IMG/VR virus record: IMGVR_UViG_3300036770_005043
Span: 1 to 59,211 of that record
Source of the DNA: a virus
Direction: 5' to 3' (one strand)
DNA length: 59,211 nucleotides
How positions within the stretch are numbered: the stretch's first letter is position 1; each line of letters begins with the position of its first letter. The position numbers and the translations under genes are program-made. Below, piece by piece: positions 20,217-32,199 of the stretch. The notes beneath the pieces were generated by a model that was not told the origin of the DNA, made no database searches, and saw nothing but the letters and a program-made list of their open reading frames with translations.

Positions 20217-20240
20217 AAAAAAGGCCGCCCGAAGGCGGCC
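20217..20240 (-). terminator. Intrinsic terminator ending the early cassette
   Basis: Read leftward, GGCCGCC pairs with GGCGGCC around a TTCG tetraloop and is followed by six T. It lies 26 bases after the stop of the last early-cassette gene and separates that unit from the terL leader. Confidence 0.9.
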
Positions 20241-20266
20241 CGAGTGTGGCCGATAGCGGCCGAGGC

Positions 20267-20521: not shown

Positions 20522-20808
20522 GACCGCACCCCCTGCACGGCGCGCGCCGCGGCTTCGAGCTCGCCGATGATGCGATCACGCATCGCGTAATCGGGGATCG
20601 CCGCCCACTCGCAGCCCGTCTCGTTATAGTCGTAAGCGCGCATAACGGCCCGCTGAGTGAGCTCGCAAGGCGTGGCCGTCACGTACCGAATGCCGCGGTC
20701 GACGTCGACAAAAACGACGCGGCCGTCGTCCAGCTGGGTCGCTGCGATCCGCTGGCCGGCTTCGGTGTACCAACGGCCGGTGTTAAACGAAAGAATTTTC
20801 TGAGTCAT
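20518..20808 (-). CDS. Small protein of unknown function, downstream of DUF932
   Basis: The ATG at 20808, preceded by GAAGGTG, gives 96 aa: MTQKILSFNTGRWYTEAGQR, then VVFVDVDRGIRYVT and YDYNETGCEWAAIPD. A longer reading to 21012 would cross an intrinsic terminator and is rejected. Similar small proteins accompany DUF932 genes on phages and plasmids. The mRNA leader shares the motif ATACAGCTAGAA with the DUF932 gene leader, and a terminator lies just upstream, so the gene probably has its own promoter. Function is unknown. Confidence 0.7.
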   Translation of the reverse strand: MTQKILSFNTGRWYTEAGQRIAATQLDDGRVVFVDVDRGIRYVTATPCELTQRAVMRAYDYNETGCEWAAIPDYAMRDRIIGELEAAARAVQGVRS

Positions 20809-20886
20809 GTTTTCACCTTCTAGCTGTATATCCACGGGGCACCGCGCCCCGCGGGGGGATGTCAAGTATCGCAAAGCCTGCACCAT

Positions 20887-20911
20887 AAAAAAAGGGCCCC
20901 GTGAGGGGCCC
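20887..20911 (-). terminator. Intrinsic terminator after the zinc-ribbon gene
   Basis: Read leftward, GGGCCCC pairs with GGGGCCC around a TCAC loop and is followed by seven T. It lies 19 bases after the stop at 20930 and before the start at 20808, dividing the early cassette into two transcription units. Confidence 0.9.
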
Positions 20912-20929
20912 TCGAAGGCGAGCGCGGGA

Positions 20930-21127
20930 TCACGCCGCGCAGTCGATTGGCCGGCCGTCGCCCGAGGTCTCGCAAGCTGCGCAGTACCAATAGAGCGGGG
21001 CCGCGCCGTCATCCGGCTCGACGTAGACCAGCTCGTGATCGAGGCGCTCGACGTACCAGCTCGGGATCGCGACCTGAGCGGGGCCCGAGCACTCCGGACA
21101 CGCCCAGCGGGAACCGGCCGAGCTCAT
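20930..21127 (-). CDS. Zinc-ribbon small protein
   Basis: This 65-aa protein has CPEC near residue 10 and CAAC near residue 49, a classical two-CxxC zinc ribbon (MSSAGSRWACPECSGPAQVAIPSWYVERLDHELVYVE...YWYCAACETSG). The start overlaps the DUF932 stop (ATGA). It may bind nucleic acid or a protein partner; DUF932 coupling suggests a joint early role. Confidence 0.75.
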   Translation of the reverse strand: MSSAGSRWACPECSGPAQVAIPSWYVERLDHELVYVEPDDGAAPLYWYCAACETSGDGRPIDCAA

Positions 21128-22212
21128 GCCGCCCAGTCCAGAATGTCGCCGGCGCTGGCTTCAAATTCCACGCGGTCGGCCGTCCACGGGATCGAGCGTG
21201 CGTACGCGGTCGCGCCGGTTACCGCATCCCATGCGGTCTCGATCGGGCGGCCCTCTTCCTGCTCGTGCACGGCCTTGATCCGCGCGGCCACGCGAGGCCC
21301 GAACCGGCTAGCCAAGAATTGATCGACCTTTTCGAGCTTCGCCGACTGCGCAGCACGCAAGGCCGTCGTGACGTTCGCGGCGCTTGCGCGTGAATACTCC
21401 AGCAGGGCCGGCGCGGCCTCTTCGAGGAACCGATCCGGAGCGCTGGCAGTGTGACGGATTGAAATTTCGTCGAGCTCGTGAGCGCCCCAGACAATCCGAT
21501 TCGCGCAGACGTAGTCAAAAAGGAAAGTTTTAATTTTTAGCGCGCTCGCACCGGTCTCGGAATTGGTAACGAAAAACCCGCGGGCGAGCTCTCCGGTCTT
21601 GCCGTCACGCCGGTTGGGTAGTTCGATCCGGTTAACTTCGTCGGCCAAGAAAACGAACATATCGCGATCGCCAGCAAAAAGCGTCGTATTAGCCTGAGTG
21701 ATCGGGACACGCTGGCCAAACTCGGCCGGCACGCGAAAGTCGCCGGTGACACCATCCCCGAACCGATCTTCGAGGGCGCGCACCACGTCCACGTTCCAAA
21801 TGCGGCCGTAGCGCGGGCCTGTGGCCGCCCTGAGCTCGACACCATCCGAGCCCCGCGTGAGCAGCACGCCCGTGTCGATCGCGTCGCGCTCGACCCTGAG
21901 CCCGTAATTTAAACAATCCGCAGCGAGCGGGGCGGGCAGGCTCCGAAGGTACGCGGCCGGCGCGCCACTGAGCGCGGCCAGCTGGCCGAATGCCCAATTG
22001 CTGGGGGCCGCTGGGTTACCCTGCGGACCCTCGATCACAAGGCCCTTATTATCGTCGGTTGGGACGACGCCCAGCCGGCGCGAGCTCACAACCAGCGCCC
22101 GAGAATTCGCGCGCAGGTCCTCAAGCTTTGCGCGCATTTGCGGGAGGCTGGTAAATCGCTCTTCGGCCGGACGGGTAGCCCATTGGCGAGAAGCTTGCAT
22201 TAATGTGGTCAT
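21124..22212 (-). CDS. DUF932-family protein
   Basis: This 362-aa protein shows the order of features I associate with DUF932: an N-terminal VPTDDNKGLVIEG-like segment, FGQLAALSGAPAAYLRSLPAPLAADCLNYGL (about residues 74-104), RAATGPRYGRIWNVDVVRAL, then DMFVFLADEVNRIELPNRRDGKTGELARGFFVTNSETGASALKIKTFLFDYVCANRIVWGA. The family is common on plasmids and phages, sometimes near recombination genes, but its activity is not established. A hairpin and the leader motif ATACAGCTAGAA lie upstream of the start. Confidence 0.88.
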   Translation of the reverse strand: MTTLMQASRQWATRPAEERFTSLPQMRAKLEDLRANSRALVVSSRRLGVVPTDDNKGLVIEGPQGNPAAPSNWAFGQLAALSGAPAAYLRSLPAPLAADCLNYGLRVERDAIDTGVLLTRGSDGVELRAATGPRYGRIWNVDVVRALEDRFGDGVTGDFRVPAEFGQRVPITQANTTLFAGDRDMFVFLADEVNRIELPNRRDGKTGELARGFFVTNSETGASALKIKTFLFDYVCANRIVWGAHELDEISIRHTASAPDRFLEEAAPALLEYSRASAANVTTALRAAQSAKLEKVDQFLASRFGPRVAARIKAVHEQEEGRPIETAWDAVTGATAYARSIPWTADRVEFEASAGDILDWAA

Positions 22213-22240
22213 GGTTTTAATCCTCTTTTCTAGCTGTATG

Positions 22241-22262
22241 CTCGGGGCGAAATTACCCCGAG
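22241..22262. promoter_or_regulatory. Hairpin in the DUF932 gene leader
   Basis: CTCGGGG and CCCCGAG form a perfect 7-bp stem with an 8-base loop. In leftward RNA it precedes ATACAGCTAGAA and an AGAGG ribosome site. The same motif after a GC hairpin occurs upstream of the gene at 20808, so this is probably a shared leader element. There is no T-run, so it is not a terminator. Confidence 0.5.
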
Positions 22263-22300
22263 CGCTGATATTAGCCTAAAAAATAAAAAGTAAACAACCC

Positions 22301-22987
22301 TTACGGCGCGCCAATGTCGCCGACGACGTGATGACGCAACAATGAGCCCGAGGGGAGCTCACGCGCGAAGCGTTCGAGCGCGGCCGCATCATCAGGGGCC
22401 CCAGCGCCAACCGTAGCGCGCCACTGCATGGCGACCGGACCGCCAGCGCCGTAGCACCCGCCCTTTTGATCCGTTCCCACGCGCGCCGCTTGCTGGCCGT
22501 GAGCTTCAAAGACAACAACAAAATCACGATCAGGGCGAGCACATAGCGGATCGCCGTTCCCGCAATTCGAGCACGTGATCCGATCCGACACCTCAGCAGG
22601 ACAGCGAACGAACCGCACGCCCTCGACCTTTTTAGCCCAGCGCTCGCCCTTCGCAACCGTGAGCACGGCCGGCCGGCCGAGCTTGCGCGCATGTAGCGCG
22701 CTCGCAAGAGAATCGGCCGAAAAGTTTATAACGGTCTCGCCCGCGACCGGTGCGGGTAACTTTTCGGCGGGAAAGTGTGAATAGGTGAACGCCTTCCCGT
22801 TCCGAGGGACTGCACGGCGCAGGGCCGACAAATAGCGCTTATCGATTTTGCGCACGGCCGCGGCTGGCTGGGGATTCAGCGGGCACGACGCAGGACACGT
22901 GCCGAACATGTTCACGGCGCCGGCGCGGTATGTCACCGCAATGGGTCCGGTTTTCCGGTTCGCGGATTGTCTGACGGTTTTTAACAT
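22301..22987 (-). CDS. Cys-rich early protein of unknown function
   Basis: This 228-aa protein has a conserved-looking N-terminal NMFGTCPASCPLNP (about residues 26-39), an NFSADSLASALHARKLGRPAVLTVAKGERWAKKVEGVRFVRCPAE centre, and a second Cys cluster ITCSNCGNGDPLCARPDRDFVVVFEAHG, followed by GGCYGAGG. The Cys pairs may bind zinc or an Fe-S cluster. I have seen proteins with the FGTCPASCPLNP opening in phages of Burkholderia-type hosts but cannot assign a function. A strong AGAAAGGAGA site precedes the ATG. Confidence 0.75.
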   Translation of the reverse strand: MLKTVRQSANRKTGPIAVTYRAGAVNMFGTCPASCPLNPQPAAAVRKIDKRYLSALRRAVPRNGKAFTYSHFPAEKLPAPVAGETVINFSADSLASALHARKLGRPAVLTVAKGERWAKKVEGVRFVRCPAEVSDRITCSNCGNGDPLCARPDRDFVVVFEAHGQQAARVGTDQKGGCYGAGGPVAMQWRATVGAGAPDDAAALERFARELPSGSLLRHHVVGDIGAP

Positions 22988-23169
22988 GCAGGTTTTCTCC
23001 TTTCTCGTTTAAGTTCCTCACAGCAAAAACAATCGCCGCACCCACATATCCGACCGACTGCAACGCGCTCACGTCGCAGCCATTCTCCGCGGGACGGCTC
23101 TTGCCTTACAGGCTCAACCAATAAAAGCAGTCGGTTACCGACTGCAAACAGGGTTGATTTTCCGTCCAT
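22981..23169 (-). CDS. Small protein with a C-terminal Cys cluster
   Basis: This 62-aa frame from the ATG at 23169 (MDGKSTLFAVGNRLLLLVEPVRQEPSRG...) ends with CGCGDCFCCEELKRERRKPAC, an unusual cluster of six Cys that suggests metal binding. The start is coupled to the upstream gene (TGATG) and the end overlaps the next gene by 7 bases. A GTG start at 23172 is also possible. Confidence 0.6.
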   Translation of the reverse strand: MDGKSTLFAVGNRLLLLVEPVRQEPSRGEWLRRERVAVGRICGCGDCFCCEELKRERRKPAC

Positions 23170-23330
23170 CACACTCCCCCCTCTGCCTCGGCACTCATGA
23201 TGTCCAACGTTTTAGTCAGGAATTCGACCTCCTGCTCCAAATCCTTAACCCGCAACTCCAACTCATATATCCGCGCATCGCGCTTGCCGATCTCCTGCAC
23301 GATTGCCGTTGTAATCTCTCTGACTTCCAT
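23169..23330 (-). CDS. 53-aa coiled-coil protein
   Basis: The frame opens at the ATG at 23330, 12 bases after the previous stop with GGAG in between. It encodes MEVREITTAIVQEIGKRDAR followed by a heptad-like helix (IYELELRVKDLEQEVEFLTKTLDIM) and AEAEGGV. It probably dimerises. It is coupled downstream by TGATG. Function is unknown. Confidence 0.65.
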   Translation of the reverse strand: MEVREITTAIVQEIGKRDARIYELELRVKDLEQEVEFLTKTLDIMSAEAEGGV

Positions 23331-23342
23331 CGCTCGTACTCC

Positions 23343-23474
23343 TCAAACAATAGAAAAACAGCCGAGCCATTCACGATAGGCGCGCTGGTCTTCAATCCGC
23401 AGGACGCACCAAACACCGTTAACTTCACGAGCAACACAAATGTCGCCGCGCTTCCAGTTTTTCCAACCGAGCAT
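23343..23474 (-). CDS. 43-aa early protein
   Basis: This frame starts at the ATG at 23474 after a perfect AGAAAGGAGA site and encodes MLGWKNWKRGDICVAREVNG then VWCVLRIEDQRAYREWLGCFSIV. It has Trp/Cys-rich beta-like character. The ribosome site and tight spacing to the coiled-coil gene support expression. No family is recognised. Confidence 0.62.
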   Translation of the reverse strand: MLGWKNWKRGDICVAREVNGVWCVLRIEDQRAYREWLGCFSIV

Positions 23475-23532
23475 GATTGCTTTCTCCTTTCTTAGGTAGG
23501 CCCGCCATGGGCCCGAGCGCTAATACTGGCAC

Positions 23533-23565
23533 AAAAGAAAAGGCCGGCACAAGTGGCGGCCCGAT
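23533..23565 (-). terminator. Probable intrinsic terminator after the helical repeat gene
   Basis: Read leftward, GGGCCGCCACTTGTGCCGGCC can fold with GGCCG pairing to CGGCC and an extended, mismatched inner stem, followed by TTTTCTTTT. It lies between the stop at 23589 and the 43-aa gene. The stem has one mismatch, so strength is uncertain. Confidence 0.55.
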
Positions 23566-23588
23566 CGGTTAGTTACTACAGCTCAGGA

Positions 23589-24026
23589 CTAGGTCCCCTC
23601 CGCAAGAATCGAAACAGACAGCCGCGAGGCCGCCAGCCTTTTGATCAGTGCCGCGGCGAGATCATCAAGATCGATATGCGTCGCGACTTCGTCGGCCCCG
23701 ATCGCTTCGGCAATATCGGCGACATTGAAATACTCGGAAACATCCCGCAAAGAAATATTCTCTGCGACACGCTCCGCGACTTCGTCCGCATCCATCGCTT
23801 CGGCAACATCAGAGGCGGTCAGGTATATCTTGCGCGCCACATTGTCGGCCACTTCGCTCATGTCAAGATCGGTCGCGATTCGATCAGTCACGCGGTCGAT
23901 CACTTCGTCAGGGTTGAGGGCTGGGGGCTGCTCGCCGATTGTTTTCTTAACTTCGGTGAGCACCAACGGCGTGATTTCACGCGCCAAAGATTGAACTAAA
24001 GCCTCGATAATCGGATTAATATCCAC
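23589..24026 (-). CDS. Acidic helical repeat protein
   Basis: This 145-aa protein uses a GTG start at 24026 placed after AGAAAGGAGA. After MDINPIIEALVQSLAREITPLV it shows degenerate repeats of an amphipathic acidic helix: DEVIDRVTDRIATDLDMSEVADNV, DVAEAMDADEVAERVAENI, DIAEAIGADEVATHIDLDDLAAALIKRL. Each contains D/E-V-A. The repeats may form a helical solenoid or oligomer. Function is unknown; an early regulatory or inhibitory role is possible but not shown. Confidence 0.68.
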   Translation of the reverse strand: MDINPIIEALVQSLAREITPLVLTEVKKTIGEQPPALNPDEVIDRVTDRIATDLDMSEVADNVARKIYLTASDVAEAMDADEVAERVAENISLRDVSEYFNVADIAEAIGADEVATHIDLDDLAAALIKRLAASRLSVSILAEGT

Positions 24027-24027
24027 G

Positions 24028-24219
24028 TCAATTTCTCCTTTCTAAGTAATCGCCGGCGGCGATCTGTTCACAATATTGAACCTGAGCGCTGTACGTGTCA
24101 ACCAGTGCACGCGCCGCGGCCAATGCCGCAATGTGGTCGGGGTCCGGATCATCCTCAATTTGATCGAGGGCCCAGCTCAACGCGTCCACCAGCTCGCCGA
24201 TCGCTTCGGGGCTCACCAC
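24028..24219 (-). CDS. Small acidic helical protein
   Basis: A 63-aa frame from GTG 24219 encodes MVSPEAIGELVDALSWALDQIEDDPDPDHIAALAAARALVDTYSAQ. It overlaps the stop of the 120-aa gene by 7 bases and stops 2 bases before the next start. The composition is protein-like and acidic, consistent with an early host-takeover micro-protein. No family is recognised. Confidence 0.6.
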   Translation of the reverse strand: MVSPEAIGELVDALSWALDQIEDDPDPDHIAALAAARALVDTYSAQVQYCEQIAAGDYLERRN

Positions 24220-24575
24220 TGCACCCGATCGGATCGCTGAAGCTGGCGCACCGCCTCCAGCCTTTCAGGTGAGCCGAGCTCGTACACGTCGCCCGCGGCA
24301 TCGACGCCGGCAAAACATACCCACTCGCTGGACTCCAACGCCTCGAGCTCAGCTTCTAGCAGCGCCTCGAGCTCGCCTTCGTCCGCGTCACAATCCAGCC
24401 GGCGCGCTTCCATGATCGCTTCGATGTATTCATCGCGCTCTGTTTCCGCTTCGGCCTTAGTGTCAAACAGCAGGGGCTGGCTCTCGCCGTGCTCGTCAGT
24501 CTCCAAAGAAACGAACGCGCCAGAAAGCGTATCCGTGACATTGGCCCAGCCTGTGCGCACAAATGTCTTGCTCAT
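24213..24575 (-). CDS. Acidic early protein of unknown function
   Basis: This 120-aa protein (MSKTFVRTGWANVTDTLSGAFVSLETDEHGESQPLLFDTKAEAETERDEYIEAIMEARR...) has a beta-rich first half and a very acidic helical middle (EGELEALLEAELEALESSEWVCFAGVD). The start overlaps the upstream stop (ATGA). It resembles small acidic phage proteins that sometimes mimic DNA, but nothing specific supports that here. Confidence 0.65.
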   Translation of the reverse strand: MSKTFVRTGWANVTDTLSGAFVSLETDEHGESQPLLFDTKAEAETERDEYIEAIMEARRLDCDADEGELEALLEAELEALESSEWVCFAGVDAAGDVYELGSPERLEAVRQLQRSDRVQW

Positions 24576-24751
24576 ACGTGCACCTCCATCGCAGCCACAA
24601 GGTGCCCTAGGTCCTCATCGCTCATATTGGCAAAACCGCGGAAGCCGTGCTCCAGATAGTGCAGCAGCAATAGATCGTCTTCGCCGTTCAGGATCGAGCC
24701 GGCGATTTCATTGACCAGTAGGTCGATGTTCTTTTGTCGAATGGTTCGCAT
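24572..24751 (-). CDS. 59-aa early protein, YLxHGFxGF family copy A
   Basis: The frame from ATG 24751 encodes MRTIRQKNIDLLVNEIAGSILNGEDD, then LLLLHYLEHGFRGFANMSDEDLGHLVAAMEVHV. The stretch YLEHGFRGFANMSDEDL closely matches YLQHGFAGFETRSDEDL in the 68-aa protein 130 bases upstream, so the two are paralogues. It is coupled by ATGA to the 120-aa gene. Function is unknown. Confidence 0.68.
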   Translation of the reverse strand: MRTIRQKNIDLLVNEIAGSILNGEDDLLLLHYLEHGFRGFANMSDEDLGHLVAAMEVHV

Positions 24752-24769
24752 GGTTTTCTCACTTTCTGT

Positions 24770-24877
24770 TCATTTGTTTCTGTTGCTAATAAGTGCAAGC
24801 CAGCCCATGTAGGCCGCCAGCTTGACCCATTCCCAAAACGATACGCGATCAGGACTTGGCTTTTTTCTGACAACCAC
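24770..24877 (-). CDS. Possible 35-aa micro-protein with a hydrophobic segment
   Basis: A GTG at 24877, eight bases after GAGGAGGG, opens MVVRKKPSPDRVSFWEWVKL, then AAYMGWLALISNRNK. The hydrophobic stretch between the two basic ends could be a membrane anchor. A TTG at 24879 in another frame gives a 63-aa reading that runs into the paralogue gene and looks less protein-like. The call is tentative. Confidence 0.4.
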   Translation of the reverse strand: MVVRKKPSPDRVSFWEWVKLAAYMGWLALISNRNK

Positions 24878-24879
24878 AA

Positions 24880-25086
24880 CTAGCCCTCCTCGTCCTCACC
24901 GAACACCCGCCGCCATTCTTCCGCAAGGTCCTCATCCGATCGGGTCTCAAATCCAGCGAAGCCATGCTGCAAATAGCTTTTAAGTACTACATGGCCATTA
25001 TCCCTGTCTTCGGTCATCAGGTAGTCGATCAATTCACTGGCCAAAGCATCCGCGGCCTGTTCTTTCGTGAAATCTTTGTATCTCAT
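24880..25086 (-). CDS. 68-aa early protein, YLxHGFxGF family copy B
   Basis: The sequence MRYKDFTKEQAADALASELIDYLMTEDRDNGHVVLKSYLQHGFAGFETRSDEDLAEEWRRVFGEDEEG shares the core YLxHGFxGFxxxSDEDL with the 59-aa protein downstream. It is helical and acidic. The start is coupled by ATGA to the upstream 53-aa gene. The paralogue pair argues that both are real genes. Confidence 0.7.
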   Translation of the reverse strand: MRYKDFTKEQAADALASELIDYLMTEDRDNGHVVLKSYLQHGFAGFETRSDEDLAEEWRRVFGEDEEG

Positions 25087-25244
25087 GACTGCACCTCCTC
25101 GACCTCTTGCGTTTCGACGCGATCGGTACCTAGTAGCGCAGCCGCCTCGGCTTTCGCTTCGACAGCTGCTTGCTCTTCGGTATCTGCTTCGACAATGACG
25201 GTACGCAGAACGCGTGCGTCGACTGTGACTGCATAGGTTTTCAT
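25083..25244 (-). CDS. 53-aa early protein
   Basis: The ATG at 25244 follows AGAAAGGAGA and encodes MKTYAVTVDARVLRTVIVEA, then DTEEQAAVEAKAEAAALLGTDRVETQEVEEVQS. The beta-hairpin start and helical Ala/Glu-rich end resemble a small ferredoxin-like half domain. A leader hairpin (CTGGGATGTTCCAG) precedes the ribosome site. Function is unknown. Confidence 0.66.
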   Translation of the reverse strand: MKTYAVTVDARVLRTVIVEADTEEQAAVEAKAEAAALLGTDRVETQEVEEVQS

Positions 25245-25307
25245 CTAGGTCTCCTTTCTATCTTTCTCTGCTGGAACATCCCAGCAACTCAAATCTATAA
25301 CAGGTTG

Positions 25308-25730
25308 CTAGGCCTCTGCAAGTGTATAGCCCACCATTGCCCACGGGACTTCCCCATAGTGCCACGCGGCGATCGGCTGCGTGTCGACGCCCGCCTTCAC
25401 AAGGTCCATGACCTGCGCGCCAGAATACAAAAGCAGCACGCCTTCTTTGCTTGCGGGTTTACCAAACGGAACGAACAACACCAGAATGAAGGTCCTAAAG
25501 CCCTGCTCCGCGTGCCGGTGATGGAAGGCGATCTGATGCGGGGACAGTCGGACCTTGCGGCCGTGCTTGACCACTTTCAGCTCAACAGGGACGAACTCGC
25601 CCGATTGCTTCAGGGCAATAAAACAATCCGGAATGCCAAGATTTACCCGTGATTCAATTCGGGTAATAAGGCAGTTTGGGAGGTTTTCTTTCAGCCTCTG
25701 GTACAGGCTCGTCTCGGGTTTCGCTGGCAT
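25308..25730 (-). CDS. PD-(D/E)XK nuclease, VRR-NUC or resolvase-like
   Basis: This 140-aa protein has the nuclease core: RIESRVNLGIPDCFIALKQSGEFVPVELKVVKHGRKVRLSPHQIAFHHRHAEQG. The Asp of IPDC and the Glu/Lys of VELK form the PD-(D/E)XK signature, and Gln of SPHQ is the usual later helix residue. It probably cleaves branched DNA or processes ends. The start lies 77 bases inside the terS gene in another frame, an unusually long overlap; no shorter start keeps the family's N-terminal helix. Confidence 0.78.
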   Translation of the reverse strand: MPAKPETSLYQRLKENLPNCLITRIESRVNLGIPDCFIALKQSGEFVPVELKVVKHGRKVRLSPHQIAFHHRHAEQGFRTFILVLFVPFGKPASKEGVLLLYSGAQVMDLVKAGVDTQPIAAWHYGEVPWAMVGYTLAEA

Positions 25731-26370
25731 CTACTGTTTCCTCGGCTTCCTCAACGTCTGCGTCCTCATGCTCGATGACAAGAGGCTCTTCGACGCTGTC
25801 GCGCACTTGCTCTGGCGTGACGTCGATGATCGGACCGCCGCCGTAGAGCTTCTTGATTTCCTCGAGCTTGCGCATGACCTCTTCCTTGCTCATGGAATCG
25901 ATCGTGCCGTGCCTGATCTCCTTGCGATCAATGTAGATCGTCCCAAGGGCCTGCCCACGGCGATACTCGGCCTGTACCGCAGCGCCATAGGCTCCTGCCG
26001 CCAGTGCCTGATCGCGAATCACCTGTAGGTCGCGCATGTGTCGCTCGTACGTCGTCCCGTACTTCTCTGCCATCTCGGCTCGCGCCTTCTGGATGGCCGC
26101 GACAATGTGCGGGTTCTTATCAGGGTCGGTCAGCTCCTCGGCTTTCTTCTTAGCGCTCTTGACGTTCCACCCTGCACGGATCACGGCCTCCTGCAACGTC
26201 ACGTGACCGTCTCCTGCCACGAACTCGTTAACGAACTTCCACTCCTGCGTCGTAAGCTCCTTGCGTTTATGCGGCTTCACAGGCCGTGAGAGCTTCTCTA
26301 GGGTCTTAGGCTGTATGCCCCTACCTATCTTGCTGCTGAACTCCCTGTCGGCCTTGCTGCGCATCTTCAT
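25654..26370 (-). CDS. terS: Terminase small subunit
   Basis: From the ATG at 26370, coupled to the upstream stop (ATGA), the product is 238 aa. The terminase_2-type DNA-binding part is LTTQEWKFVNEFVAGDGHVTLQEAVIRAGWNVKSAKKKAEELTDPDKNPHIVAAIQKARAEMAEKYG, the usual helix-turn-helix with the RAGW motif. An oligomerisation helix follows (DLQVIRDQALAAGAYGAAVQAEYRRGQALG). The acidic Pro-rich tail carries the overlap with the nuclease gene. A longer reading from 26448 is possible but would bury the start in the 71-aa gene. terS recognises the packaging site and loads TerL. Confidence 0.88.
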   Translation of the reverse strand: MKMRSKADREFSSKIGRGIQPKTLEKLSRPVKPHKRKELTTQEWKFVNEFVAGDGHVTLQEAVIRAGWNVKSAKKKAEELTDPDKNPHIVAAIQKARAEMAEKYGTTYERHMRDLQVIRDQALAAGAYGAAVQAEYRRGQALGTIYIDRKEIRHGTIDSMSKEEVMRKLEEIKKLYGGGPIIDVTPEQVRDSVEEPLVIEHEDADVEEAEETVDASETRDEPVPEAERKPPKLPYYPN

Positions 26371-26582
26371 GCCACTCTCCAGACCCGCCAGCCATTCTCG
26401 ACGCGTCGACAAGAGAATTTGGTCCCATGGCGCTTGGAGTACATCCACGCGGCGCTGCGGGCGTTCTTGGCGGACTCCACGTCCGGTAGCAAAAAGCTGT
26501 CCCCGATCTGCATGACAGGGAAGGGGTATTTCTCCCGCTGGGTTTCCGTCGGAATCGGGATTCCAGAGTCAACTATCAACAT
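26367..26582 (-). CDS. Small protein with YPFxxMxxGDSF motif
   Basis: This 71-aa protein contains REKYPFPVMQIGDSFLLPDVESAKNARSAAWMYSKRHGTKFSCRRVENGWRVWRVA. I recognise the pattern YPF..M..GDSF....., SA..A...+.+RHG.KF..R....G.RVWR as a small family found in many phages. It is the first gene leftward of the divergent control region, so it should be among the earliest products. Its ATG has no strong Shine-Dalgarno sequence. Confidence 0.75.
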   Translation of the reverse strand: MLIVDSGIPIPTETQREKYPFPVMQIGDSFLLPDVESAKNARSAAWMYSKRHGTKFSCRRVENGWRVWRVA

Positions 26583-26636
26583 GTAACTAGTGTAACGGAG
26601 GCAACTTCAGGGCGTCCAGCCTATTTGAGGCGATTT

Positions 26637-26671
26637 TATATAGCTATTTCTAGACATTGGACACGTTCAAA
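26637..26671 (-). promoter_or_regulatory. Leftward promoter-like element (box plus TATA)
   Basis: Read leftward: TTTGAACGTGTC, then 15 bases, then GCTATATAAAAT. The box and spacing are identical to the rightward element at 26808-26842. The TATATA matches a sigma70 -10. There is no TTGACA 17 bases upstream; the box may be an activator site. It would drive the 71-aa gene, terS and the early cassette. Confidence 0.6.
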
Positions 26672-26706
26672 CGTAGCAATTTGAGACGCCATTGCATCCC
26701 AGAGAA

Positions 26707-26784
26707 ATTACACCATTACACTTCTAAAAACATACTGTAACCATACTTAACTCATTGTTTCTATTAGGTTATTACACCATTACA
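26707..26784. repeat. Two 14-nt direct repeats between the divergent promoters
   Basis: ATTACACCATTACA occurs at 26707-26720 and 26771-26784, 64 bases apart start to start (about six DNA turns). The placement between two outward promoter-like elements suggests operators or initiator-binding sites. Confidence 0.75.
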
Positions 26785-26807
26785 TTGCACTACTACTATT
26801 TGTTGCT

Positions 26808-26842
26808 TTTGAACGTGTCTAAAGTGGCTGAGAGGCTATAAG
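26808..26842 (+). promoter_or_regulatory. Rightward promoter-like element (box plus TATA)
   Basis: TTTGAACGTGTC is followed after 15 bases by GCTATAAGAAAC. This repeats the leftward element in inverted orientation with the same internal spacing. It would transcribe the HNH-like gene at 27034. Confidence 0.6.
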
Positions 26843-27033
26843 AAACCCCCTGTAATGCCCTTGACCCGTGATCCGCGGCCCTTTCTGTCTCATCCACACA
26901 ACAAAACCCCCTCTCTTGTCTCCTTTCTACAACAAACTTGCCTTTCCGCCTCCCCCTCCCCCATAATGCGCAAAGCCCAAGTGCTGCAAACACTCGGGCT
27001 TCACTTCCCAGCCGTTGTATGGAGCACAACCGC

Positions 27034-27342
27034 ATGAGCAGACCTGATGATAACACCCTAGAAACCATCCGCGCCTCGCTGGAATACCACGACACCGCCG
27101 TCGGCGCCCTCATCTGGAAGATCGGCCGCAAGAAAGGCGAACTCGCAGGGTCCTTCGTCGGCCCCCACAAAGAGCTTCGCGTACGCGTTAACGGCCAGTC
27201 CCTGTCCGCCGCCAAGATCGTCTGGTTCTTGGTCCTTGGCTGGTGGCCCGAGAACCGTCTCCGCCGTGTCAATCTCGACTACGACGACATCCGAATCGAC
27301 AACCTAGAAGAAACTCACCGCCGCGAGGGCCCAGGGCGGTAA
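27034..27342 (+). CDS. Degenerate HNH-like protein
   Basis: This 102-aa rightward protein has the HNH_3-type scaffold: YHDTAVGALIWKIGRKKGELAGSFV, RVRVNGQSLSAAKIVWFLVLGWWPENRLRRVNLDYDDIRIDNLEE. In active members the segment reads HxNGxxxDNRxxNL; here it is RVNLDYDDIRIDNL, so the metal-binding His and Gly are missing. It may be a non-cutting DNA-binding protein derived from an HNH nuclease. GGAG lies 9 bases before the ATG. Its stop codon adjoins a terminator of the opposing operon. It is the only rightward gene in the left half. Confidence 0.78.
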   Translation: MSRPDDNTLETIRASLEYHDTAVGALIWKIGRKKGELAGSFVGPHKELRVRVNGQSLSAAKIVWFLVLGWWPENRLRRVNLDYDDIRIDNLEETHRREGPGR

Positions 27343-27371
27343 AAAAACCCCGCCTCTCTCGAGGCGGGGTC
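27341..27371 (-). terminator. Intrinsic terminator of the leftward replication operon
   Basis: Read leftward, ACCCCGCCTC pairs with GAGGCGGGGT around a four-base loop (GAGA) and is followed by seven T. It overlaps the stop codon of the rightward HNH gene and lies 49 bases after the last leftward gene, so it blocks traffic from the replication operon into the control region. Confidence 0.9.
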
Positions 27372-27419
27372 CGTGGCACGTGAGCAGGGGTTGCTCACAA
27401 GTGGTAGCGGCCACGCAAC

Positions 27420-27647
27420 CTACTGGACGTCCCCTCCCATCGCCTCGCGAAAACGCCCCTCCAGCATCCTCGCCGCCATACTGGCAGGCATGACGTCCCC
27501 AAACTCAATGTCAGAGAACTCCCGCGGCCCCTGTAGGAGGCCGGGGATATACAGCACCGGCCCGATCATGGCGTACTGCACGCCATCCAGCGTCACCACC
27601 GTGACCTGCACCAGCCGATCGTCGTCCTCTGTCGTCACGAGATTCAT
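27420..27647 (-). CDS. Small early protein of unknown function
   Basis: This 75-aa protein (MNLVTTEDDDRLVQVTVVTLDGVQYAMIGPVLYIPGLLQGPREFSDIEFGDVMPASMAARM...) is beta-rich then helical. It is the last gene of the leftward replication operon and overlaps the previous stop by 4 bases. No motif is recognised. Confidence 0.65.
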   Translation of the reverse strand: MNLVTTEDDDRLVQVTVVTLDGVQYAMIGPVLYIPGLLQGPREFSDIEFGDVMPASMAARMLEGRFREAMGGDVQ

Positions 27648-27829
27648 CCCGTCTTCTCCTCAATCCCTGCAAGCTGCTTGCGTAACCGCGTGAGCTCCTC
27701 GGTCAGCGCCTCCGCGAAGACCGCCTGTACCTCAATGCGTCGCCGCAACCCGTAGATATACTCCCTCAAGAGAACATTCTCCACCTGAATCGGCGGATCC
27801 TCGGTCGTCCAATTTAAGAAGGGCTTCAT
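27644..27829 (-). CDS. Small coiled-coil protein
   Basis: This 61-aa protein (MKPFLNWTTEDPPIQVENVLLREYIYGLRRRIEVQAVFAEALTEELTRLRKQLAGIEEKTG) has a helical second half with heptad spacing, likely a dimer. It overlaps both neighbours by 4 bases (ATGA). Function is unknown. Confidence 0.68.
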   Translation of the reverse strand: MKPFLNWTTEDPPIQVENVLLREYIYGLRRRIEVQAVFAEALTEELTRLRKQLAGIEEKTG

Positions 27830-28302
27830 CGTGGCGTCCCCCGTAATCGATCGGCGACAAGTGTCGCGTAACCGGCAATGTCATCCCAGTTGTCAATCTT
27901 ATTGGGATTGCCGTTCACAATGCGAGAAAGCTTCGTCGCAATCATTTCAAGCGCCTCCCATTGGTCCTCCCCCATCACCGTCCCTGCCTCGTGAGCATGG
28001 TCCGTGATCACCGATTTGAGCTTCTGCGCAAGTCGCGCATTGTCCACAAAGAGACCGTAGTCCTTGGCCCGTGAGCCGAGGATCGTGTCAATCTCTGAGA
28101 AGACCTCTTTGAAAGTCAAGGCCACGCCGTCCTCATCGGATTCTTTGTTCATCTCGTCGCGAATGCAGAAAACATCGGAAAAACTAGCATTAAAATGACC
28201 GCATACTGAGGCAATCGTCGCAGCAGGGTTATCAAAGAAATACTGCCTGATCAAAACTTTAAGCTCAGGAGTCATCTCCTGAAGCGGTGTTGGCTCATTC
28301 AT
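27826..28302 (-). CDS. DUF6378-like protein
   Basis: This 158-aa protein has an N-terminal helical part (ELKVLIRQYFFDNPAATIASVCGHFNASFSDVFCIRDEM, possibly winged-helix-like). The C-terminal domain reads ILGSRAKDYGLFVDNARLAQKLKSVI, then QWEALEMIATKLSRIVNGNPNKIDNWDDIAGYATLVADRL. The pattern R-K-YG-F-N-A, M--KLSRI--G--NK-DNW-DIAGY is what I know as DUF6378, a frequent phage protein of unknown activity related in appearance to MazG-like helical proteins. A perfect AGAAAGGAGA site precedes the ATG. Confidence 0.8.
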   Translation of the reverse strand: MNEPTPLQEMTPELKVLIRQYFFDNPAATIASVCGHFNASFSDVFCIRDEMNKESDEDGVALTFKEVFSEIDTILGSRAKDYGLFVDNARLAQKLKSVITDHAHEAGTVMGEDQWEALEMIATKLSRIVNGNPNKIDNWDDIAGYATLVADRLRGTPR

Positions 28303-28351
28303 CCCTCGCTCTCCTTTCTCATGTGGGAGAGCCTTTGTAGCATGAAACGAA

Positions 28352-28726
28352 TTAAAGCTTCAACTTCTTTCTTTTGCGATGGCGCGTACGGTGCTCGTTC
28401 CAGTGCAGGATTCGATGGCAATTAGCACAAAGCGGAATGCAATTCTCTGTCGCTTCTTTGATGGCAAGCGGAAGGTTATTGTTTCGGCTCACAAGCTCCT
28501 GCACCGCATGCTCCTTGGTCCCTGGGTGGTGAAAGTCGATCACCGCAGGGTGCTGCATCCCACAATGCGCGCATCGCTGCTTCGCCTTAAACGCCGTCCA
28601 CTCCGCCCGTATCCGATCCTTCTGCTGCCTCGATCGCCGGATCTGCTGCGCCTTATTCTTGAGATAATGCCGGCGGGAATACGCCCTCTGGCGCTCGCGC
28701 CGTGTCTCAGGGTCCTTGTACGGCAT
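28352..28726 (-). CDS. HNH endonuclease
   Basis: This 124-aa protein is basic and carries the zinc-containing HNH core: CAHCGMQHPAVIDFHH, then HAVQELVSRNNNLPLAIKEATENCIPLCANCHRILHW. Two CxxC pairs (CAHC, CANC) bind zinc; the first His of DFHH, an Asn in the helix region and the His of CHRILH make the HNH site. It could be a free-standing homing nuclease or assist packaging or recombination. It is intact, unlike the rightward HNH-like gene. Confidence 0.85.
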   Translation of the reverse strand: MPYKDPETRRERQRAYSRRHYLKNKAQQIRRSRQQKDRIRAEWTAFKAKQRCAHCGMQHPAVIDFHHPGTKEHAVQELVSRNNNLPLAIKEATENCIPLCANCHRILHWNEHRTRHRKRKKLKL

Positions 28727-28729
28727 GAC

Positions 28730-29158
28730 CTAAAGCGCCCGCTTCCAATAGAGCGTCTTGGCGTAAGCGTACTCGATCGGCGGGGTGTAAAGCTTGAAGC
28801 CACAGGCGATGAGGTTATTGGCGCTGGGATGGTTATCCGTCGTATCGGACACCGCAAGCTTGTAGCCCGCTCGCCGTGCCCAGTTGAGCCGCACGCGGAT
28901 AAGACGCTTCTGTAAGCCCTGCCCTCGGTACGCGGGCAGGAGCCCAGATCGGGAGAGGTAAATCCCGCGGGCGTGCTGGAGGGAGGGCGTCGCACAGGCA
29001 AACCCCACGTGCAACGAGCCGTGGTCCATGAGCCACCAGACGCCGTCTTCCGGAAAGTACAACCGATCCGAAGGAAGACAGGCCTTCTGTAGCGTCGTCA
29101 AAAGGCGTCGCCCAGCGTCGCCCTTCGCCGAGATGCGATAACACCGAAAACCCCCCAT
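28730..29158 (-). CDS. GNAT-family N-acetyltransferase
   Basis: This 142-aa protein has the acetyl-CoA signature LSRSGLLPAYRGQGLQKRLIRVRLNWARRAGYKLAVSDTTDNHPSANNLIACGFKLY: motif A is RGQGLQKRL, with the strand before it, and ANNLIACGFK is motif B. It would transfer an acetyl group to a small molecule or a protein. Phage GNAT enzymes can modify host or own proteins; the substrate here is unknown. The start codon lies inside a small GC hairpin without a Shine-Dalgarno sequence, so translation may be controlled. Confidence 0.85.
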   Translation of the reverse strand: MGGFRCYRISAKGDAGRRLLTTLQKACLPSDRLYFPEDGVWWLMDHGSLHVGFACATPSLQHARGIYLSRSGLLPAYRGQGLQKRLIRVRLNWARRAGYKLAVSDTTDNHPSANNLIACGFKLYTPPIEYAYAKTLYWKRAL

Positions 29159-29166
29159 AACGGGGG
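29152..29166 (-). promoter_or_regulatory. Hairpin enclosing the start codon of the GNAT gene
   Basis: In leftward RNA CCCCC-GUUAU-GGGGG folds with the AUG (29158-29156) at the loop/stem edge, followed by GUUUU. No ribosome site precedes it. It may throttle translation or act as a weak terminator. Confidence 0.45.
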
Positions 29167-29184
29167 AAAGTATAAAATAAAAAG

Positions 29185-29484
29185 TTAGATCGGGGAGTGG
29201 TAGTCGATGACCAATTGGACCGCGGCGATATAGCGGTCGAGCTCCGCAAGGTCGGCGGCTTTGTCTTGGGAAAAGACCGCCGTGCCACGGCCCGTGGCAC
29301 GTTTGCGACGGTCCGCTTTCAGGTTATCCAGCGTCTGGTTCAGCATGTAAAGCGTACAGTGCTCCATGAACTCCACCGGAAGCTCAATCAGATAGTCCCC
29401 TTTTGGGACCTTCTGCTTACGGGCCTTCTTGGTCTCAGGGTGGTCCTTGCCGAGGATCTTCTCGAGCACCGCTTGGCGGCTCAT
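29185..29484 (-). CDS. Small helical protein of unknown function
   Basis: The start at 29484 is coupled (ATGA) to the upstream gene, giving 99 aa: MSRQAVLEKILGKDHPETKKARKQKVPKGDYLIELPVEFMEHCTLYMLNQTLDNLKADRRKRATG... A longer frame to 29520 lies inside the neighbour and is rejected. It is mixed charge, mostly helical, with no known motif. Confidence 0.66.
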   Translation of the reverse strand: MSRQAVLEKILGKDHPETKKARKQKVPKGDYLIELPVEFMEHCTLYMLNQTLDNLKADRRKRATGRGTAVFSQDKAADLAELDRYIAAVQLVIDYHSPI

Positions 29485-29702
29485 GACAGGACCTCCACGT
29501 GGGACTCCGTCTCGATCCACACCCGAGCGCCGCAGGAGAGCGGCTTGTCAGGGGAGTAGACCACCCGCGACGGGCCGTTAATGACGACGTCCTTGGCGTA
29601 GGTATTGGATTTATAGTTCTTAATCGTCAGCACCGGCTCCTGCGTCCCGTTCTTCAGGTTCTTGCGGATGACGTGCTGGTTCACGTGGATGATCGTCTTC
29701 AT
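29481..29702 (-). CDS. Small beta-rich protein
   Basis: This 73-aa protein (MKTIIHVNQHVIRKNLKNGTQEPVLTIKNYKSNTYAKDVVINGPSRVVYSPDKPLSCGARVWIETESHVEVLS) looks like a compact beta barrel. I recognise the phrase HVNQHVIRKN-KNG---PVLT+K from phage hypothetical proteins. It is coupled on both sides by short overlaps. Function is unknown. Confidence 0.72.
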   Translation of the reverse strand: MKTIIHVNQHVIRKNLKNGTQEPVLTIKNYKSNTYAKDVVINGPSRVVYSPDKPLSCGARVWIETESHVEVLS

Positions 29703-29914
29703 GGCGCTATCCCTCGTTTCCGAATCTCAAACACGACAATCGGGGCATCCCATTCTTCCGCAATCTTAATACACTCCGCCCGCTCTGCGCCGGCCACCAT
29801 CGCCGCGAAGGTCTCCAATTGCTCGACGGTCGTCAACCTAAAGTCAAACGGGTTGTCGTTACCGTGCAAGAGGATCGCCTCTTGGGCCATGGCAATGATC
29901 TCATCGCGGGTCAT
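29699..29914 (-). CDS. MTRDEII-type early protein, copy 1
   Basis: From the ATG at 29914, coupled to the upstream stop, it encodes 71 aa: MTRDEIIAMAQEAILLHGND..., then TVEQLETFAAMVAGAERAECIKIAEEWDAP. The N-terminal helix and the FAAxVAxAERxxC block match the neighbour at 29911-30150, so they are paralogues of a family common in phages of proteobacteria. Function is unknown. An upstream ATG at 29959 is inside the neighbour and rejected. Confidence 0.72.
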   Translation of the reverse strand: MTRDEIIAMAQEAILLHGNDNPFDFRLTTVEQLETFAAMVAGAERAECIKIAEEWDAPIVVFEIRKRGIAP

Positions 29915-30150
29915 GACGCTTTCCTCCCACGGATGGCATTGGCCACACCACTCGGACATGACTCACAAGTTGGCTCGTAACTCTCAGCCACCAACGCACA
30001 CGCCTCACGCTCGGCTGCGGCAACGAGGGCGGCAAAGCGTTCAACGTCCATACACAACGGCATAATCGATTCATTTTTCTGGTACGGGCTGTGGCGACCT
30101 GTCGCCGCTCCTGCCTCTCGCGCCAGTCGGATGATGTCGTCGCGGGTCAT
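29911..30150 (-). CDS. MTRDDII-type early protein, copy 2
   Basis: This 79-aa protein begins MTRDDIIRLAREAGAATGRH and has MDVERFAALVAAAEREACALVAESYEPTCESCPSGVANAIRGRK. The C-terminal CESC-type pair may bind metal. It is a paralogue of the downstream gene. The first 11 coding bases, ATGACCCGCGA, are identical in four successive genes here. Confidence 0.75.
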   Translation of the reverse strand: MTRDDIIRLAREAGAATGRHSPYQKNESIMPLCMDVERFAALVAAAEREACALVAESYEPTCESCPSGVANAIRGRKAS

Positions 30151-30359
30151 GGCTTCTTCTCCGTGACTTCAGACACACCAAGCCCAACTATCTTTTCAAA
30201 GCAGCACTCCATGCAGAAATGCCTGACATTGCCGTCGGCAACGCGGTTGAATGTAACGACGCTGGTGATCGTCCCGTGAACGGGGCAATCGTATTCGGGT
30301 TGCACAATGACCATACGATCTCCTTCCATCGCCCATCCGATACTGTAGTCGCGGGTCAT
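30147..30359 (-). CDS. Small Cys-rich MTRD-start protein
   Basis: The start at 30359 gives 70 aa: MTRDYSIGWAMEGDRMVIVQPEYDCPVHGTITSVVTFNRVADGNVRHFCMECCFEKIVGLGV... The residues CPVH and CMECC form a likely zinc site. It is coupled both up- and downstream by ATGA-type overlaps. The longer frame to 30467 overlaps a coupled 27-aa gene and is rejected. Function is unknown. Confidence 0.68.
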   Translation of the reverse strand: MTRDYSIGWAMEGDRMVIVQPEYDCPVHGTITSVVTFNRVADGNVRHFCMECCFEKIVGLGVSEVTEKKP

Positions 30360-30439
30360 AGCACCGCCCTCATCAGTGCAAAACCAAGCATGAAAGACAC
30401 TACACACAGGGCTGCATCTATCCATTCTTCGCGGGTCAT
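30356..30439 (-). CDS. 27-aa single-membrane-segment micro-protein
   Basis: The frame from ATG 30439, preceded by AGGAGGAC, encodes MTREEWIDAALCVVSFMLGF then ALMRAVL: an acidic start and one hydrophobic helix. It shares the first 11 bases with three other genes and is coupled at both ends (ATGA). A membrane micro-protein of this kind could regulate host membrane enzymes or superinfection; this is speculation from shape. Confidence 0.55.
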   Translation of the reverse strand: MTREEWIDAALCVVSFMLGFALMRAVL

Positions 30440-30612
30440 GGCTTGTCCTCCTGAGCCAGCGCAGCACGAAGGTTCAGGATCTTCTCCGAAAGATCCCCGT
30501 CCTGCTCGATCTCTTCCAAATCCCGACAGCTACCCCACTCGGCGTCGATCATGACAGCCCATCTCTCGAGTAACTTCAGCGCATCTTCTGCGGCGTTGCG
30601 TAAATCGCTCAT
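30436..30612 (-). CDS. Small helical early protein
   Basis: The ATG at 30612 follows AGAAAGGAGA and gives 58 aa: MSDLRNAAEDALKLLERWAVMIDAEWGSCRDLEEIEQDGDLSEKILNLRAALAQEDKP. The helical pattern with L..AA..AL..LE.W is common in phage small proteins. An upstream start at 30651 would overlap the neighbour. Function is unknown. Confidence 0.7.
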   Translation of the reverse strand: MSDLRNAAEDALKLLERWAVMIDAEWGSCRDLEEIEQDGDLSEKILNLRAALAQEDKP

Positions 30613-30632
30613 CGTCTTTCTCCTTTCTATAC

Positions 30633-30830
30633 TTAAGGCTCTCTCACCCATTCATTGTTTCGGGCCTGCTCGTCTCGGAGCTGCTCCTCGAGGTCCTTGA
30701 TCCGTGAGACATAGTACTTGATCCGTTCACGAAGATCCCGAATCTCATGCTGATACTCACTGACCGTATGCGATCGCGCATCCCACTCACGCTCCCATGC
30801 GCCCGCCTCGGATTCTTTGTCCACCATCAT
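30633..30830 (-). CDS. Coiled-coil small protein
   Basis: This 65-aa protein (MMVDKESEAGAWEREWDARSHTVSEYQHEIRDLRERIKYYVSRIKDLEEQLRDEQARNNEWVREP) is nearly all coiled coil. It is coupled by ATGA to the membrane-anchored gene upstream, which also has a coiled coil, so the two may interact. Function is unknown. Confidence 0.68.
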   Translation of the reverse strand: MMVDKESEAGAWEREWDARSHTVSEYQHEIRDLRERIKYYVSRIKDLEEQLRDEQARNNEWVREP

Positions 30831-31006
30831 AAAAACCCCCGTGCCGCGTAATAGCCAAGTGCCACTCCAACCAAAAGCCCCACTAGCAGTAAGGCAATCT
30901 CCACAGCAATCCCGTCCTTCTCCCGATCTCGGTAGGCGAGGATCACCTGCTGCATGTACTCCACTTCTGCTTCAAGCTCCGTGATCCGTTCGTAGAGGTC
31001 CTTCAA
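30827..31006 (-). CDS. 59-aa coiled-coil protein with C-terminal membrane segment
   Basis: A TTG at 31006 follows GGAGGGAGGG by six bases and overlaps the previous stop. The product is MKDLYERITELEAEVEYMQQ, VILAYRDREKDGIAVEIALL, LVGLLVGVALGYYAARGFL: an acidic coiled coil and then one membrane helix. The topology resembles small phage membrane proteins. It may pair with the coiled-coil protein encoded next. The TTG start is supported by the very strong ribosome site. Confidence 0.6.
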   Translation of the reverse strand: MKDLYERITELEAEVEYMQQVILAYRDREKDGIAVEIALLLVGLLVGVALGYYAARGFL

Positions 31007-31119
31007 AAGTAATCCCTCCCTCCTCGAGAACAGCGCCAGTTGGGGTTAGGCACATGCCGCCAGGAATAATCCCGACACGCCTTAAACTCCCGCCACAGTC
31101 GTCGCAAGGTTCGCATCAT
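31003..31119 (-). CDS. 38-aa basic micro-protein
   Basis: From ATG 31119 (or 31116) it encodes MMRTLRRLWREFKACRDYSW then RHVPNPNWRCSRGGRDYF. It is Arg/Trp-rich with an amphipathic N-terminal helix. Its end contains the ribosome site of the next gene (GGAGGGAGGG), and both ends overlap neighbours, as in the rest of the operon. Function is unknown. Confidence 0.55.
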   Translation of the reverse strand: MMRTLRRLWREFKACRDYSWRHVPNPNWRCSRGGRDYF

Positions 31120-31298
31120 CGCTTTTCCCTCAACGCTTTGGTATGCAGCCAGCCATTGGCCGTGGGCCGATAACCCACCGCCACGAGCGCCTCTTCGCTA
31201 CGGCAATAGCCGTCCTTGCGCTTATGCAACCGGAAACTATCGGGATTAGCAAACACCTGTTTGCATTCCGTACATCGTCGAACTCTGGGTGTCGTCAT
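31116..31298 (-). CDS. Small zinc-finger protein
   Basis: This 60-aa protein contains CTECKQVFANPDSFRLHKRKDGYC (residues about 9-32), a C2HC zinc-finger spacing (Cys-x2-Cys, His, Cys). It is basic and could bind nucleic acid. The start is coupled to the previous stop. Related single-finger proteins are frequent in aquatic phages. Target unknown. Confidence 0.76.
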   Translation of the reverse strand: MTTPRVRRCTECKQVFANPDSFRLHKRKDGYCRSEEALVAVGYRPTANGWLHTKALREKR

Positions 31299-31489
31299 TT
31301 CTCTCTTTCTCCTAGCATTGCATCGGCCATAAAGTAGGCCCGCTCCGCGATCAAAAGCTCATTCTCGAGCTTGGTCTTGGCGATGATTGCTTTCATCGCT
31401 TCGATCGCCATGTGATCGCGTAACGTCAGCCCACCGTGTAATTTAATCTGTCCTGAATCATCCACAATCCTATCAGGAAAAATATTCAT
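31295..31489 (-). CDS. Small protein with IAERAYFMADAML motif
   Basis: This 64-aa protein (MNIFPDRIVDDSGQIKLHGGLTLRDHMAIEAMKAIIAKTKLENELLIAERAYFMADAMLGEREK) ends with a helix I recognise from many phage hypothetical proteins (A..AY..ADAML..RE). Function is unknown. It is 4 bases after the 76-aa gene. Confidence 0.74.
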   Translation of the reverse strand: MNIFPDRIVDDSGQIKLHGGLTLRDHMAIEAMKAIIAKTKLENELLIAERAYFMADAMLGEREK

Positions 31490-31492
31490 TTT

Positions 31493-31723
31493 TTACTCTT
31501 TGGTATAAAACTCTAATATTTCATCTTCGATCAACATCCTCTGTTCCTCTGGGATGGCCTTCGTAATATTGATCTTCTTAGTTTTGCCGTTTTTCTGTTT
31601 AAAGAGAACGTTAATCTCCGTAATGTCCACCATACCCGGCAGGACTGCACCACTGACATAAAGCGGATCCAGATTCTCATAGAGCACCTCGACGTCTAGG
31701 GTAAGTTCGGTGTCATGCTTCAT
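31493..31723 (-). CDS. Small acidic beta-rich protein
   Basis: The start at 31723, with GGGAG seven bases upstream, gives 76 aa: MKHDTELTLDVEVLYENLDPLYVSGAVLPGMVDITEINVLFKQKNGKTKKINITKAIPEEQ... It is beta-rich then helical. An earlier in-frame start at 31741 is less well placed. I know no function. Confidence 0.66.
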   Translation of the reverse strand: MKHDTELTLDVEVLYENLDPLYVSGAVLPGMVDITEINVLFKQKNGKTKKINITKAIPEEQRMLIEDEILEFYTKE

Positions 31724-32147
31724 CGCGTGTCTCCCGTGCATTGATTCGCGCTAGAAGCTCCGCTTCTTTGTAGGTCTTTTCAAACAGCTCATCGATCAAA
31801 GGCGTGATAATGGCGCCCATCCCCGCCTTGTAGAACTTCTGAAGCTCTTTGATCTTGTGGTACGTCTCCATATGGATGGAGATCGTCTTGAAACTTACCC
31901 GCGTTCGCTTGGAAGGCGAGTAGCGGCCTGGGTACCGGTACTTTCGCTTCCGTCGATTGCGCCATGTGTACGCCTTCAGCTCTTGAAGGCGCTCGCGCGC
32001 AGACTCATCGCCTTCCTCGACGCGCTTGGTTAAGCGCTGGACCCCGAGCCGCGGGAAACGCTTGTTGAAGTCGTCGTAGTTAAGATTCATCCACTTCAAG
32101 CCCTTTGGCAAAGGCTTTTTGGAAGCTTGTGGTTTGGGTGAACTCAT
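31713..32147 (-). CDS. Basic protein with possible ribbon-helix-helix domain
   Basis: This 144-aa protein has a strongly basic middle (TWRNRRKRKYRYPGRYSPSKRTR) and then VSFKTISIHMETYHKIKELQKFYKAGMGAIITPLIDELFEKTYKEA. The strand-helix-helix order with K-ISIH-ETYHKIKEL resembles CopG/Arc-type DNA-binding domains. It could be an early regulator, for example at the palindrome or the direct repeats. This is an inference. It is preceded by AGAAAGGAGA. Confidence 0.66.
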   Translation of the reverse strand: MSSPKPQASKKPLPKGLKWMNLNYDDFNKRFPRLGVQRLTKRVEEGDESARERLQELKAYTWRNRRKRKYRYPGRYSPSKRTRVSFKTISIHMETYHKIKELQKFYKAGMGAIITPLIDELFEKTYKEAELLARINARETRDEA

Positions 32148-32199
32148 AAGTGTCTCCTTTCTTGATTTCTACCCTAACAGCTCGATACCAGAGATGCAA

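Follow-up and report, generated by a model that had tools for sequence, protein, structure and literature searches.

In the complex cosB site of phage lambda, the elements follow the order R3-I1-R2-R1, in which I1 is the IHF site and R2 is inverted, and the bend introduced by IHF lets the dimeric small terminase subunit (TerS) engage both sides of the site (PMC4669245). In the pac site of phage P1, repeats are combined with an IHF site in a bent complex (PMC10028697).

The locus described here was found in the window, that is, the entire 59,211-base IMG/VR record of a virus of aquatic bacteria. The locus resembles complex cosB in that repeats flank an IHF-like site, the next repeat is inverted and the last one is direct, and in that the array lies upstream of terS in the same orientation. 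It differs from lambda cosB in the repeats, which are 5-9-nt units and are more closely spaced, and no cosN or cohesive ends were seen here. We know of no counterpart of the mirror-image arms of this locus in lambda-type cosB. The similarity to P1 pac consists in the combination of short repeats with an IHF site, and headful packaging would suit the apparently permuted map; however, P1 pac is located inside the pacA gene and contains Dam-site hexamers, whereas the site described here lies between genes, has other repeats and possesses mirror arms. In a limited literature search, no published description of such a site was apparent. From the sequence comparisons, we tentatively interpret the locus as a single composite, non-coding, cis-acting site for terminase loading (packaging initiation) of the pac/cosB type, acting with IHF and embedded within fast-evolving arms; we put the probability of this interpretation at about 0.42.

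The site and its surroundings

The features of the site and the adjacent genes are the following.

26607-26871, no strand: whole mirror-symmetric composite site, with imperfect 73-nt arms at 26607-26679 and 26799-26871
26633-26679, minus: outward arm towards o26367 and terS; box TTTGAACGTGTC at 26660-26671, 15-nt spacer, GCTATATAAAA
26800-26846, plus: outward arm towards the HNH-like gene; box TTTGAACGTGTC at 26808-26819, 15-nt spacer, GCTATAAGAAAC
26771-26784, minus (the terS strand): direct repeat TGTAATGGTGTAAT, with GTAAT units at positions -23 and -15 relative to the bend site
26748-26760, minus: IHF-like bend site AAACAATGAGTTA, one mismatch to WATCAANNNNTTR
26736-26743, plus: inverted repeat unit CTGTAACC, at the position of the inverted ATTAC unit of relatives
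26707-26720, minus: second copy of the direct repeat TGTAATGGTGTAAT, terS-proximal relative to the bend site
26694-26704, minus: CTCTGGGATGC block, at the position of CTGGGRTGCGCGCGCG in relatives
26370-26582, minus: o26367, 71-aa protein; Pfam DUF7303, below the cut-off only
25654-26448, minus: terS, terminase small subunit; phrog_51 (E 5.6e-7) and, below the cut-off, Pfam Terminase_2 (E 2.3e-4)
27034-27342, plus: HNH-like endonuclease gene on the opposite side; phrog_99 (E 9.3e-15) for the longer ORF 26938-27342
27347-27365, minus: terminator-like hairpin and T-run, closing the leftward run of genes that approaches the site

The preliminary description of this DNA reported one leftward and one rightward copy of the box followed, at equal spacing, by GCTATA, with two 14-nt direct repeats between them. 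These coordinates are exact: GCTATA follows each box after 15 nt (26644-26639 on the minus strand and 26835-26840 on the plus strand), the two boxes are the only exact copies in the record, and the two repeats (ATTACACCATTACA, at 26707-26720 and 26771-26784) are 64 nt apart. We also agree that what precedes the TATA does not correspond to a standard -35 element. The mirror symmetry extends further than originally noted, to a 26-nt inverted pair (81%; 26654-26679 and 26800-26825) that sits inside the imperfect 73-nt arm alignment, and the score of this alignment, 21, was reached in none of 2,000 dinucleotide shuffles (mean 7.7, maximum 15). The box pair belongs to a larger composite site, of which it is the conspicuous portion; this site covers approximately positions 26,600-26,880 and is located between the HNH-like gene (plus strand) and the o26367-TerS genes (minus strand). 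Three features did not figure in the first reading, namely the near-IHF site at 26748-26760, the constant spacing of the repeats and their linkage to terS. In view of these, packaging initiation is no less likely a function than the promoters or the origin proposed there.

To the left of the site, the minus strand encodes o26367 and TerS, followed by terL and portal- and capsid-type genes; to the right, the HNH-like gene (HNH_3 in Pfam, with an E of only 0.058) is followed by minus-strand genes, the run of which ends in the terminator-like hairpin. The o26367 protein is predicted to adopt a beta-alpha-beta-beta fold, and the comparison with the PDB yielded no informative match, none being better than E 0.6. 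A sigma-70-like -10 element (TACACT; TAGACT in many relatives), identified by eye, lies at 26590-26597 and ends 6-7 nt before the o26367 start codon, a distance that would give a leaderless mRNA. The region was rejected as a member of a known RNA family: Rfam produced only sub-threshold matches, confined to the 27,347-27,365 terminator region (ncS54 and anti-hemB, 27308-27383, minus strand), which are most likely due to chance. In the interval between the portal gene and terL, a 1,645-aa ORF (13040-17977, minus strand) has no Pfam or PHROG match; Phage DSL-LC04 encodes an 825-aa PcfJ-like protein in its place.

A megablast search with positions 20,000-34,000 of the window against deposited phages gave no match. 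At the protein level (helicase, TerS, TerL), the best match among deposited phages is Phage DSL-LC04 (helicase 67%, TerL 76%), a metagenome-assembled lake phage deposited as circular; the more distant cultured relatives are the Pelagibacter phages HTVC023P and HTVC027P.

Layout, spacing and position next to terS

Many environmental phages and Phage DSL-LC04 have the same layout immediately upstream of terS, and HTVC023P has it with other letters. Read towards terS, it consists of an outward left arm, an A/T-rich tract, two to three direct GTAAT repeats and the bend site, followed by an inverted repeat, a direct repeat, a CTGGGRTGCGCGCGCG-type block, an A/T tract, an outward right arm and o26367/terS; AT-rich tracts flank the core in most relatives. 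The expectation that the elements would be conserved in relatives holds for the architecture and fails for the letters of the box. The full box-N15-GCTATA pattern was detected in only one further IMG/VR contig, which comes from a near-identical relative and contains the same pair, so that the letters of the box are private to this phage, whereas the layout is widely conserved.

The spacing of the GTAAT repeats relative to the bend site is nearly invariant. Measured over 72 regions from the bend site, an anchor for which up to two mismatches were tolerated and which was partly picked for nearby repeats, making the bend-site statistics partly circular even though exact spacing was not imposed, direct GTAA[TG] units are found at -32 (43 regions), -23 (43) and -15 (64), inverted [AC]TTAC units at +27 (40), +28 (7) and +29 (8), and the direct repeat beyond the bend at +47 (36) and +48 (8). 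Subject to the same circularity, the IHF consensus WATCAANNNNTTR is matched exactly in 23 of 39 representatives, compared with 0.27 in shuffles (maximum 4), and the letters at its NNNN positions vary freely. A relaxed search detected no IHF-like motif in 65 of the 121 core matches listed; in many of these, the bend position is occupied by another motif, around TATGCGGG. In the distant members of the set (L285-L403), TATGCGGG-type sequences replace the IHF-like motif and may be where a different bending protein binds. In each of the nine genomes with the core-plus-bend pattern, it is present as a single copy, apart from an additional weak match in G001.

At least 121 DNA stretches match the pattern of core repeats. 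Among the 121 matches listed, TerS is encoded downstream on the same strand in 114 and an o26367-like gene alone is found in two; in the remaining five, the sequence ends within 240 bases. Hence every listed match with sufficient flanking sequence adjoins terS or o26367 rather than replication genes. In deposited phages, blastn with the core yielded only two weak, short matches. The only bacterial-genome match comes from a 58-kb contig of an Armatimonadetes metagenome-assembled genome (L403, CAIRTT010000055.1), probably a phage that was binned along with it.

The architecture also occurs in HTVC023P (MN698239, about 11,620-11,845), the TerS of which is 36% identical over the aligned part. Upstream of its terS, mirror arms (27 nt, 78%) surround other repeats, ACTAGGAAAA, and the mirror-arm score is reached in one of 2,000 shuffles. 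The IMG/VR relatives of HTVC023P also possess mirror arms and repeats, with a weak result in the arm permutation test described below (p = 0.054). In HTVC027P and 023Pt_psg01, inspection of the regions preceding terS, or preceding the gene run to which terS belongs, revealed no such site. The layout stays constant while the letters change, across freshwater phages and HTVC023P, a cultured phage that infects the marine bacterium Pelagibacter and in which the site is amenable to experiment. To our knowledge, packaging and late-gene control in such phages have been little studied.

The paired arms

The elements singled out in the preliminary description are a true mirror-related pair: the pair is conserved, with TATA-like outer ends, and in the relatives whose genes were read it has divergent genes on both sides. 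The outer ends of the arms retain the TATA-like element (TATAGGAA, TATATAAAA, TAACTAAAA) and the upstream box varies. By lineage, the letters of the arms change, for example, TAGACCCTAAAAAAGTCTAACTAAAA, AAATAGAATT...GAGTGTATCTATAGGAA in DSL-LC04 and TTTTTTTACARRAAGTTTAYCTTAGTAAA in L207. Within a genome, by contrast, the two arms match. In a permutation test on 39 representatives sharing less than 80% identity, the mean score was 19.7 for arms of the same genome versus 11.1 across genomes, and the observed mean was not attained in any of 20,000 permutations (maximum 14.3; p = 5e-5, the floor of the test). One arm type is common to some of the representatives and, in many of those, the best match of an arm is not its own partner. 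Whole-genome scans of ten genomes detected no second copy of the arms.

Pairs of closely related phages with different arms bear on the identity of a possible reader of these sequences. L005 and L008, at 94-96% identity across most of 13 kb, have the same o26367 but different arms; DSL-LC04 and G014 are near-identical phages that also have different arms. TerS was considered as the reader and set aside given that it is near-identical in L088 and L092 and 97% identical in L200 and L202, with different arms in both cases. The identity of o26367 in L005 and L008 disfavors this protein in the same role; its two homologs share 64% and 44% identity in the comparison of DSL-LC04 with G014. The HTH/DUF6378 protein (27826-28302) was likewise discarded, its homolog being near-identical in L005 and L008, as was an HTH-annotated regulator of DSL-LC04 (22429-23046) that is 97% identical in G014. 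Taken together, the L005/L008, DSL-LC04/G014 and L088/L092 pairs argue against TerS, o26367 and the HTH/DUF6378 protein as arm readers. A separate observation on L005 (17725-18585) and L008 (18135-18931) is that the left-hand gene and the control region are swapped as one cassette.

It is possible, albeit doubtful, that these arms define a class of mirror-armed control sites not described before, in which a conserved bent core next to terS is combined with two outward arms, both of which change in concert from lineage to lineage under a single fast-evolving, phage-encoded or host-adapted reader, coupling the start of packaging (or late transcription) to that reader. The paired arms constitute a natural record of co-evolution that could be used to identify the arm-reading factor.

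Proposed packaging initiation and the alternatives

The cosB-like order of elements upstream of terS is the reason that we favor a terminase-loading site. Under the proposed mechanism, TerS would bind the GTAAT repeats, and a bend made at the central site by IHF or a protein of similar action would let the direct repeats on one side meet the inverted and direct repeats on the other. The same central bend would place the outer mirror arms next to each other, within reach of a two-fold complex capable of holding the pair; use of the arms in this manner and cutting of the DNA by the terminase are, like the binding of TerS and IHF, predictions of the model. The ends of relatives' contigs scatter around the circular map, with no sharp cluster at the site, so that a fixed cos end was rejected and the locus is not classed as a cos site; being drawn from metagenome contigs, this is indirect evidence on the genome ends.

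Several observations go against packaging initiation. The linkage to terS could be inherited synteny, and no cleavage site was identified. The IHF-like site of the window has a mismatch, distant lineages carry another motif at that position, the site is not seen in the respective regions of HTVC027P and 023Pt_psg01, and the permutation result for the HTVC023P group is weak. The fast-evolving, TATA-ended mirror arms are a feature that packaging initiation leaves without explanation.

Under a possible, if less likely, alternative, the arms are two outward phage-specific promoters, each comprising a TATA-like start element and a lineage-specific box, with the central repeats and IHF forming a shared regulatory complex that serves terS and the late genes in one direction and the HNH-like gene in the other. 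The retention of the TATA-like outer ends next to an upstream box that is variable yet matched within each genome fits this possibility, as such a combination would suit the requirements of a phage-specific polymerase or activator. With promoters of single-subunit phage RNA polymerases, the arms share a conserved TATA/TATAGGGA end next to a variable upstream box. Also compatible are the divergent left-hand gene (with the site read towards terS) in the window, DSL-LC04, L005, L008 and HTVC023P and the terminator-like hairpin that closes the leftward gene run ahead of the site. However, unlike in single-subunit polymerase promoters, the box of the window is too distant (about -31 to -20 upstream, taking the TATA as -4 to -1), and there are only two copies per genome. 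The proposal of the preliminary description that the arms are promoters gains no support from the scan of the window, in which neither arm has a sigma-70 match (-35 and -10 hexamers at 16-18 nt), nor from the presence of one arm pair per genome instead of a promoter set; the exact box, tried as the signature of such a set, yields only the one pair in the record. Furthermore, sigma-70-like -10 elements were recognized by eye close to the o26367 start codon in the window and several relatives, and L005 and L008 differ in their arms despite the shared o26367 and the high overall identity. A search for T7-type RNA polymerase (PF00940) gave no match in ten records, a weak negative because the control genomes gave none either. 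Inward intrinsic terminators were considered as well, given that a hairpin with a T-tract is apparent by eye in the arms of some relatives, and were rejected because the arms of the window and DSL-LC04 lack this appearance.

An origin of replication, also raised in the preliminary description, appears unlikely. In such an origin, GTAAT iterons, an IHF bend and AT-rich flanks would form an initiator complex, and the arms would prime or load replication in both directions. The parts list is that expected of an iteron origin: a single-copy, non-coding locus with tandem repeats, an IHF-like site, AT-rich tracts in most relatives and arms with two-fold symmetry. Unlike iteron and IHF origins, the site is linked to terS, the listed core matches with sufficient flank adjoining terS or o26367 rather than replication genes, and no adjacent initiator gene was recognized. 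Nor does the site coincide with a skew switch: the mean GC skew of ten genomes rotated to the site has the same sign on either side, although such switches are often weak in phages. Packaging, promoter and origin functions may also be combined in this site.

Finally, it is highly improbable that the arms simply pair as a long RNA or DNA stem in which complementarity alone is selected and the letters drift freely: the match within genomes with divergence between them is the pattern of a stem too, and the region of the window outperforms its shuffles in folding, with z of -3.6 and -2.0 for the two strands, but 126 of the 211 arm mismatches are transversions, which do not pair and so argue against simple base pairing, the wobble-compatible mismatches show little strand bias (48 vs 37), and the TATA-like outer ends are conserved more than pairing requires.

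With regard to packaging initiation, GGACCAC heptamers were examined as a cut site unique to the region and were rejected because they are dispersed elsewhere too. Tandem 7-nt units of the form GGRYCNN (e.g. GGATCACGGGTCAAGG) occur at 19846, 26859-26881, 51654 and 56657 and recur in relatives, where a cluster of such units lies near the left arm in most of the regions read.
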